From positions 481,623-545,622 of the forward strand of contig CACRXP010000094.1 in assembly GCA_902702965.1 (NCBI GenBank): DNA of 64,000 nucleotides. Direction: 5' to 3'. This DNA is from Spirometra erinaceieuropaei. Its lineage: Eukaryota > Platyhelminthes > Cestoda > Diphyllobothriidea > Diphyllobothriidae. Below are positions 31,490-34,400 of this stretch, in pieces. Under the pieces are notes generated by a model that searched no databases, was not told where the DNA came from, and worked only from the letters and a program-made list of their open reading frames with translations. Made by a program: the position numbers and the translations under genes. Each line of letters begins with the position of its first letter. The stretch's first letter is position 1.

Positions 31490-34400
31490 GTACGTTTATT
31501 TCCTCACCTACCTCACATGATTTCCTCTCTTTCGTTACCCTTTGGCTTTTTTCGCCTTTACCTCCGGGTTTTTCCTCCGCTTAGCAGTATCTAGATAGTT
31601 TCATAGATAGTTCTTCAGACGCACACAGAACGAGAACGCGATTTTCCACTATTCATCCCACGTTTCATTAATTTGTTTGACTTCTTCCTTGATGAGTAAG
31701 TTTACTCATAAAAAGTAACATTCATCAATTCCTCCTCAGTATTTGCGGCCGCCTGAAACGTACAAAAGCTCATCCAGAATGCGTTTACTATGCTTTCAAG
31801 TTAGCTTTCGGTCAATTTCGTGGATGCGTGTTCCGTATACTTCCGGGAACCCTCATGATTCAAGTACGAGTAGTCCTTTTTTCGTCGTTTTCTAAAGGGT
31901 TACCTCGAGGGTTACGATAGCTCTTTAGTCACCTGCAGATTTGACCTTTTGCGTCACTTAGCCAACGTAGACTAATCCATAAAGACACGGTCAGGTTTTG
32001 CAGGATTTGACTTCAGTCTAACCCTTTGACCTCGAGGACTCGTCGTCTGTGCTTTTCCGAAATTTGGCGGTAATGGTATTGACTTGCACAAAACGCACGG
32101 AGACTCATTCATTGTTGGCCCTGCTATTTTCTTCCTGTTCCGAAAAGAAGTACTTACACGGAGACGTCAGTCAGGTTAAGCCTACTGTCGACTGTGTTGC
32201 AACTGTGCATCATAAGACTAGCGAAGGCGTCTCCTAATCTTTAAATGTCGTCTTGTGCTTGTGGAGCCAATTCTTCCATTCTCTTTGAACCTGATCTAGT
32301 GAACTTTATCCGCTCATCTTTGGACGTATAGGCCATCATTTAGTTTGTTCTCGGATCACATGAACGTTGCGAGTGGTCGTGTTGGGCCGACTTTTGAGGA
32401 AGTCGTCAGTTAATTCTTTTGATAAGGGACGATATCTAATGAGGACAGAGCTGCTAACGGTCTGTGACTGTGATACCTCATTCATAGGTGTTCGGTCGTA
32501 TTTCCGGAACGGCCTGAGGTTCACCTTACCTCAGTTTATTGAGAGAAATAGGTTTAAGCCTTTGAGTGCCCTATTTACATCGTAAAACTGTATGCGATGT
32601 TCAGAGAAGTTATCTGGGCTGAAATAATTCAAACGAGCCCATAACAGTATGAAAAAATTTGATGAGCTTGATTTTTCATCGCCCTTGGACATTTCAGAAT
32701 ACAAATATGACAAGGTCCTTTTAAAACTTTGTATCAGTGTTAATATCACAACATCTACAGGGAGGGCATTCCATGGTTTGACCACTCGGATAGAGAAGGC
32801 GAAATTCTGCACATCCAGCCTAGCCTGCTGAGCGCGCAGTTTCGACGGGTGACCTCGGAGGTTGGTCACATGTGCGAATTTAAAAAAGGCCTCGAAGGCC
32901 AAGCTGCAATCTTATCCCTTCCCAATGCGGAATGCTTGCAAGAGCTCCCCGCGAAGTTGCCTATAACTCAAGGGGATAGGTTCAGATTCATTAGGCGCGT
33001 AGCATAAGGAAAGTGGCTTTGACCCCTTACCATCTTTGTGGACCCTCTCTGAACTCTTTCGAGGCAATTTTGGTCGTTAACTGCCCATGGTCTCCAAGCA
33101 TATATGCCGTATTCCAAGTGCGGCCCAACGAATTTTCGTAATGTCGTTGAGAAAGCATCTTCGTCAAAATCCATAAACGTACACTTGATGACATACATTA
33201 CGGTATTGTGCAATAATTTACCATACTAACGGTCATTGTGCTTTTTGCTATTCTCGAACAACGAGCGGACGGTTTTAAGGAGTTCGTCGTCAGCATACCG
33301 AGGTCCTTTTGGAGTCCGACGCCTCATAAGGCTGCACCGCCCAGAAAGGAGTCACTTGTGCTGTCGGATCTGGCTGTGTTGCCTAACCTTCAGCCGCAGA
33401 CGCCAATGGTTTGCCCACTCATCCAACCGTCCCGTGTTCATCTACAGTCAGCCTTCATCAGCAGAACCCCAAACTACGCTCCATATCTTCATGCCATTTG
33501 CAAACATTGCTACTTCGCATTCGAAAGCTATTGCGCAATCGTCCACGTATATTAGGAAAAAAGCGGGTGCCAGTGCCGATCCATGGGAAACACCACTCTC
33601 GACCTCTGCAGTATCTGATTTCCCTTGACAGATACACAAAACTGCTGTCAGCTCACAAGAAAGTTTTCGACCCATTTGAGGAAGTTGCCTCTGATCCCTA
33701 TTGTTTGGCCTGTGCAACAATTTCTGATGTGGCACAGTGTCAAACGTCTACTGGAACTCAATGAAAGCTATGTAGACCGTATATCTGTCTTGAAATGCTT
33801 AGGTCCAGCTCTGGAGAGATTGCAGCAGGTTTGTCGTGTAGGATATGAAGTTCCAGGTATTTCATTAATTCACACTTCATGATCCGTGCCATATCTTTGC
33901 AAAGAATGCATTTCAAGCCTATGGGCATGTAATTTGTCGTTGATACCCTGCTACCTCCCTTGTATAGCGGAGTAATATGTGCCAGCTTCAAATTCATAAG
34001 AAGTGTTCCAGTTGATAGAATTGAACAGGCCAGTCCCGGGTAGCAGTTCATAAGATGAAGATGCGATCACTGGAACAAGAAATTTATTTGCCTGACGTTT
34101 CGGATTCTCAGTCGAATCCATCATCAGAGACCTCTATCTGCGAATGTCTCTGATGATGGATTCGAGTGAGAATCCGAAATGTCAGGCAAATAAATTTCTT
34201 GTTCCAGTGATCGCATCTTCGTCTTCCAAAGTGTTCCAGTGTAAGATGACGTTTGAAAGAGCCTCGACAAAGGCACAGAAAGCTCATTGACAAATTCTTT
34301 AAGAAACTTGAGTTGAACCTCGTCTGGTGCTGGCGATTTCGACTCCTTCAGTTCCTCCAATTATATTCGAAGAAATCGTTGTCGAGACCACTGCGAACTG

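Follow-up and report, generated by a model that had tools for sequence, protein, structure and literature searches.

A 216-bp palindrome in a tapeworm genome as the probable smallest insertion product of a Penelope-like element (PLE)

A 64,000-nt stretch of the Spirometra erinaceieuropaei genome (the window) contains a 216-bp palindrome between direct repeats, raising the question of whether such a unit is a mobile element in its own right or a product of machinery already known. An earlier note on this DNA had described it as a non-coding unit of PLE origin, with a leader and two hammerhead-like ends, inserted into a reverse transcriptase (RT) frame and matching no named class. The arms, the repeats and the predicted fold confirm the palindrome, its position and its exact 12-bp target-site duplication (TSD; Table 1). 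The inverted repeat (34052-34131 and 34146-34225) comprises 80 nt at 96% complementarity around a spacer of 14 nt, and the insert strand folds at −154.8 kcal/mol (z = −21.2), with none of 200 shuffles as stable. The leader is indeed a one-sided element, but its identity is that of a 3′ extension of the left arm when this is read on the minus strand; we refer to it as the tail, following the passages on tails in PMC3846280 and PMC11167929.

Table 1. Features of the insert and its host, in window positions.
Feature	Position	Strand	Basis
Host LINE frame, reverse-transcriptase-like, that the insertion interrupts	33761..34360	-	
Target-site duplication, left copy, AAGTGTTCCAGT	34001..34012	.	
PLE tail (the leader of the earlier note), prolonging the left-arm ORF; outer end at RT start site 2	34013..34050	-	
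Inverted arm, a pLTR head; sense on the minus strand; ORF start near 34124	34051..34131	-	
Hammerhead-like core, left arm: CTGATGA - stem II - GAAACGTC	34094..34127	-	sequence, motif survey
Head-to-head junction; right arm starts at the predicted transcription start A	34130..34131	.	
Direct arm, a pLTR head without tail; ORF start 34153; outer end at RT start site 1	34131..34226	+	
Hammerhead-like core, right arm: CTGATGA - stem II - GAAATGTC	34150..34183	+	sequence, motif survey
Target-site duplication, right copy, AAGTGTTCCAGT	34229..34240	.	

As had been claimed, removal of the insert restores the reading of the host. With the insert and one repeat omitted, the minus-strand frame is open through the site, and the joined frame aligns across the junction with another LINE frame of the window (23865-24146, 41% identity). 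Pfam returned no match at 1e-3 for the joined 124-aa piece, and we take the host to be a LINE from its residue pattern and from the similar frames within the window. A genome-wide survey, in which 40 of 877 candidates were scored, the window copy being the fortieth, supplied the empty site: 39/39 paralogues of the host LINE run through the junction without a length difference between query and subject (83-84% identity). Exact repeats and empty-site paralogues together establish a clean insertion with a TSD. Elsewhere, at L032, a further insert of this kind (mini-element) has a member of this host LINE family ~10 bp away, with 72.7% identity at the DNA level over 571 nt.

The insert is one of many. 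With the 216 bp as query, the 758.7-Mb assembly yielded 2,162 candidates, and all 40 that were scored are head-to-head palindromes (84-100% identity, window copy included). Thirty-seven are mini-elements and three (L020, L030 and L034) are heads of longer elements, in which one flank runs into a PLE ORF; L010 and L014 have flanks common to another copy and are treated as duplicates. Exact flanking repeats of at least 9 bp accompany 28/40 palindromes when all scored copies are counted, and exact repeats of 9-13 bp accompany 26 of the 35 mini-elements that are left after removal of the three heads and two duplicates. Among mismatched flank pairs, a control inflated by two duplicated locus pairs, 27 of 7,791 reach at least 9 bp. 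The exact pattern GARYCCATCATCN{6,36}GATGATGGRYTC occurs at 185 palindromic centres genome-wide (reversed control, 0), a count that drops copies with any mismatch and includes heads of longer elements; 50 of the 185 centres were inspected. An arbitrary sample of 80 kb from 20 places, two of them all N, held one clear diverged mini-palindrome (L075:2614-2832), an inverted pair (L078), a single arm (L076) and a half-element (L075:3506-3639), too few for an estimate of density. The target motif across 26 sites is A-leaning and roughly symmetric, too weak to lean on. The earlier note had called for many copies with differing TSDs, and these are what the genome-wide query found. Scaffolds of this genome do contain gaps (N stretches), which would suit a one-off rearrangement or an assembly artefact, but the occurrence of the palindrome at many loci with different flanking repeats and hosts, and the uninterrupted paralogues, leave that explanation with hardly any probability.

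The nature of the arms became clear from their translation. In sense orientation an arm reads CTGATGATGGATTCGAGTGAGAATCCGAAACGTC..., translated as MMDS(S/T)ENPK..QANKFLVPVIASSS, and the tail prolongs this ORF as ...ELLPGT.LF.SI. Each arm thus comprises a 5′ leader followed by ~25 codons from the start of a PLE ORF, and the statement that the insert holds no coding sequence has to be withdrawn. Longer copies match the mini-elements in their ends and in TSD length. Exact TSDs of 12-15 bp flank L041, L042, L044, L046, L074, L106 and C837, and none was seen in the longer copies L043, L047, L113, C77 and C311:143493; TSDs of PLEs are known up to ~15 bp. One ORF piece of L042 matches RVT_1 (E 1.9e-5; 24.9 bits, below the cut-off of 29.6), and ORF pieces of L044 and L046 match GIY-YIG (E 3.6e-4 and 6.3e-4; 21.2 and 20.4 bits, below the cut-off of 22.6). 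Two other L042 pieces had no Pfam match, and no PDB entry was found by sequence search with the RT piece of the PLE. The L042 RT piece has 1,530 homologues, and the 120 listed are all Spirometra or Sparganum proteins (S. erinaceieuropaei and Sparganum proliferum), 55-91% identical; most of those listed carry precomputed PF00078 and/or PF26215 and some PF01541. The mini-element has no RT of its own. Elements with the same termini therefore combine RT and GIY-YIG (at domain scores below the curated cut-offs) with an ORF start inside the pseudo-LTR (pLTR), an optional tail of 30-40 nt and, in 26/35 mini-elements, a short exact TSD of 9-13 bp, as PLEs do. The PLE origin proposed earlier is upheld by the arms, which are PLE ORF starts, and by these longer relatives: the palindrome is the smallest insertion product of a tapeworm PLE and not a new kind of mobile element. 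A separate form is seen at L020, where two PLE heads face each other and both flanks continue through the tail into the ORF, as in two long cDNAs joined head to head.

The hammerhead-like core is intact in 61/80 arms by regular expression, with stem II pairing mostly kept. Stem III is reduced to ACGU in 56 of these 61 cores, in line with the PLE hammerheads 'lacking the helix III' of PMC6155905. The two motifs that had been noticed are present, yet they lie on opposite strands, which leaves one sense motif per transcript, and an Rfam hammerhead search of the palindrome returned no match, the motif being recognised by eye and regular expression only. An RNA of a single arm folds at −18 kcal/mol, no better than shuffles, compared with −154.8 kcal/mol for the whole palindrome. 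Since the hairpin would enclose the motif, and since the two motifs are on opposite strands, self-excision as a small circle is unlikely. Moreover, the hammerhead lies inside the copied stretch, so that an RNA cut at that site beforehand could not have served as template; in PMC11167929, unprocessed RNA was the dominant substrate in vitro. Metazoan retrozymes, as described in PMC7229834, are likewise small non-coding units, in their case with type I hammerheads, for which PLEs are candidate movers. They are, however, short tandem repeats giving circular RNAs, whereas the arms here stand head to head with no sense dimer: 40/40 scored copies have this arrangement and not the head-to-tail tandem. 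A match to the microRNA precursor MIR7504 in Rfam, on both strands at 34061-34216 (71.2 bits, below 83), was rejected as expected of a long hairpin; such sub-threshold precursor scores are a trap for the automatic annotation of hairpins of this kind.

In most copies the outer ends cluster within two narrow windows. At the tail end, 22/26 mini-elements with exact repeats start 0-4 template nt past TGATAG (the other four are odd), and at the opposite end the repeat follows CTTC after 0-5 nt in 24/26, five of these with a non-template base. The outer ends fit two discrete RT starts ~40 nt apart. In PMC11167929, the tail is the sequence between two adjacent internal RT start sites, and the PAc protein cleaves and extends both target strands with no apparent strand difference in RT start in vitro. 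A single tail with a bare opposite end characterises 33 of the 37 mini-elements, and none has two clear tails; the remaining four (L014, L028, L039 and L040) have one tail-length end and another outside the script classes, L039 being doubtful at both. Because the query held a tail, this set fairly excludes two-tail forms only. With a tail-blind arm query (1,267 candidates, 40 places scored), exactly one tail was found in 14 (at 15 places) of 15 classifiable pairs; 18/40 places had no resolved same-family partner, C311:123015, with a partner of another family only, being counted among them, and five were solo arms with no partner within ~340 nt. The exceptions are L047, with two tails and no clear TSD, and C92, with a partial tail. 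Independent choice of start sites would give one tail in at most 50% of pairs (binomial P about 0.0005, or 0.002 with C92 as a miss). An exact repeat of at least 9 bp flanks 8/14 one-tail pairs, and 6/14 have none such. Direct repeats flank the solo arms L101 (12 bp), L062 (9 bp) and L076 (about 10 bp by eye), which look like one-sided insertions by the same machinery; no clear direct repeat was found at the solo arms L098, L100, L116 and L052, and L108 has only an offset 8-bp one.

These ends bear on a second route to a palindrome, in which one cDNA or antisense RNA primes itself at its end and copies itself, a course put forward in print for the Adineta vaga Penelope as self-priming on an antisense template (PMC3846280). 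The small loops and central micro-homology of head-to-head palindromes would fit this snap-back. The copied arm should then, however, repeat the tail and enter the target, whereas 14/15 classifiable pairs are one-tailed and most mini-elements have their bare end within the other RT-start window.

The subfamily composition of the arms provides a further test. Nearest-neighbour pairing of arms was uninformative (the mate was nearest or tied for 23/80 arms), and linked diagnostic sites were therefore used instead. Across seven subfamily-diagnostic sites, 263 of 273 cells show the same state in both arms of a copy (about 67% for random pairing), indicating that the two arms derive from similar RNAs, an agreement that snap-back would also give. 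At two linked sites, 42 of 56 pairs agree, five differ and nine are uncalled. L046, which is one-tailed and flanked by an exact 12-bp repeat (CCTCCCGATATT), combines a left arm of the C-C-G subfamily with a right arm of the T-T-A subfamily; the arms of L034 differ at three linked sites. Those of L013/L014, which are one duplicated locus, and of L040 differ at one site only. For L046 and L034, the sequences suggest two RNA templates as the simplest reading; alternatively, these chimeric arms could be later recombinants. Self-priming thus explains the palindrome but neither the single tail nor arms of two subfamilies, and we regard it as improbable.

We also asked where the arms end internally. 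In longer copies, the arm sequence is preceded by TATAAATA...TTCA, with the boundary before CCTCTATCTG, and in 19 script-matched segments TATA begins 30 nt upstream of the A that we take as the predicted transcription start. In counts that include three heads and two duplicates, and in which micro-homology makes junction bases assignable to either arm, the longer arm ends exactly at this A in 17/40 palindromes and within 1 nt of it in 23/40. It falls 2-10 nt short in 14/40 and passes beyond in three (L017, −3; L033, −4; L019, −15); in 17/40, neither arm is within 1 nt. The shorter arm ends 3-34 nt inside, and the inverted arm of the window copy extends to reference position +16 from the predicted start. 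Tail-bearing arms outside mini-elements (34 of 40 places inspected, the other six being mini-elements) mostly run on: 32/34 continue upstream of the predicted start for 10 to at least 120 nt, and the remaining two stop at +11 and +13. The TATA region that precedes this sequence in longer copies is absent from mini-elements. Given arms that end at the A in palindromes, as opposed to longer copies that continue upstream, the palindrome centre would correspond to the predicted RNA 5′ end. Judged from sequence, the predicted transcription start, 30 nt downstream of the TATA box, is where arms tend to stop.

A palindromic mini-element (SINE-, MITE- or retrozyme-like) that propagates on its own by means of PLE proteins would account for the many copies that resemble each other in sequence and length and have TSDs. 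Such a unit, however, would have to spread without its TATA region, and its junctions and arm differences would be inherited. Instead, copies with the same junction are no closer to each other than to others (0.0695 vs 0.0732; permutation p = 0.33, duplicates dropped), mirror-image junction classes occur, (7,0) with (0,7) and (16,0) with (0,16), and the listed palindrome centres all differ (50/50, from 185 matches), one arm reaching the ..GG(G) end of the family in 22/50. Junctions are not inherited, and the palindromes therefore seem to be made anew each time, which makes autonomous spread very unlikely. The 'mobile form' of the earlier note survives as inserts made repeatedly by PLE machinery; mobility of their own and an unnamed class do not, as the arms are PLE pLTR heads that lack the TATA region and have junctions that are not inherited. 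MITEs and foldback DNA transposons are similarly short and non-coding, with inverted repeats and a TSD, but MITEs differ from the mini-element, which has retroelement ORF starts as arms, ends at PLE RT-start sites and an asymmetric tail.

We propose that the 216-bp unit is probably a minimal PLE insertion made by two-strand target-primed reverse transcription, run-off and head-to-head joining. A PLE transcript would start at the predicted site 30 nt below its TATA box, and the PLE RT/endonuclease complex would cut the two strands of an A/T-leaning target with a stagger of about 12 bp. RT would be primed on both target strands at two internal RNA sites ~40 nt apart, one strand per site, thereby leaving a tail at one end and none at the other. 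Both cDNAs would run through the first codons and the hammerhead back to the RNA 5′ end, where they would be joined head to head, usually with the loss of some nucleotides, and fill-in of the stagger would produce the TSD. If RT started at the first pLTR of the RNA, an ORF-less palindrome would result; if one cDNA started further downstream, an ordinary PLE copy with inverted pLTRs. Points against a two-cDNA model are the 17/40 ends off the predicted start, L047, C92, the solo arms, the 18/40 tail-blind places with no resolved partner and the 6/14 pairs without an exact repeat, and a single template is also compatible with most copies, whose arms share one subfamily. Because RT start showed no apparent strand difference in vitro (PMC11167929), the one-of-each pattern is not predicted from that work. 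More tentatively, at somewhat less than even probability, PLE integration in general may be a symmetric two-strand, two-template reaction by a dimeric complex that primes one cDNA per target strand, one per RT start site, full-length copies with inverted pLTRs arising by the same joining and mini-palindromes being the shortest products. If this is true, mini-palindromes record both RT starts and the transcript 5′ end at base resolution.

Joining of this kind has a parallel in LINE-1 twin priming, in which two primed cDNAs from one RNA are joined with an internal inversion in one insertion; here, by contrast, dedicated internal sites would serve as the starts of both cDNAs, which would meet at the 5′ terminus of the RNA. 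Closer likenesses are A. vaga Pen2a (PMC3846280) and PAc (PMC11167929), in which the pLTR holds the first ORF codons and a tail of ~30-40 nt optionally stands at one of two inverted pLTRs. In the PLE plan published in PMC3846280, Pen2a has a ~31-nt tail and a 9-bp TSD, and TSDs in those PLEs are about 8-10 bp, compared with 9-13 bp here; PAc has a hammerhead near the pLTR-ORF junction, and the longer copies here share RT and GIY-YIG. Unlike Pen2a and PAc, the inserts lack an ORF body and consist of two arms and one tail in many copies, and their arms stop at the predicted transcription start, with the TATA part of the pLTR absent. Inverted pLTRs and tails are already described in PMC3846280 and PMC11167929. 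ORF-less palindromic PLE inserts did not appear in the titles and abstracts searched, many subscription papers being outside these searches, nor did literature searches find the boundary at the predicted transcript start or the one-of-each use of RT starts. The parts of the ORF-less palindromic form are thus published, and their combination is apparently undescribed in the literature searched.

These inserts touch on how PLEs complete insertion and why their pLTRs often face each other, later insertion steps being described in PMC11167929 as 'yet to be validated experimentally'. The verified ORF-less inserts, at least tens, plus 185 matching centres, have their outer ends at RT start sites and their junctions near the predicted 5′ end of the RNA; from the way in which their tails are paired and from chimeric arms, two-strand priming can be told apart from self-priming. 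These inserts may in part account for the short average Penelope copy of S. erinaceieuropaei, about 420 bp by arithmetic from the figures in PMC8166898 (10.41% of 796 Mb in 198,272 copies). The window itself is dense in PLE arms of more than one family (30485-31089, 41268-42133, 54271-55675, 35279-35369, 49159-49201 and 50029-50122), and the 711-bp PLE copy at 61935-62645, whose ends are inverted, carries a single tail and an exact 12-bp repeat, GATTATCCTTGA.
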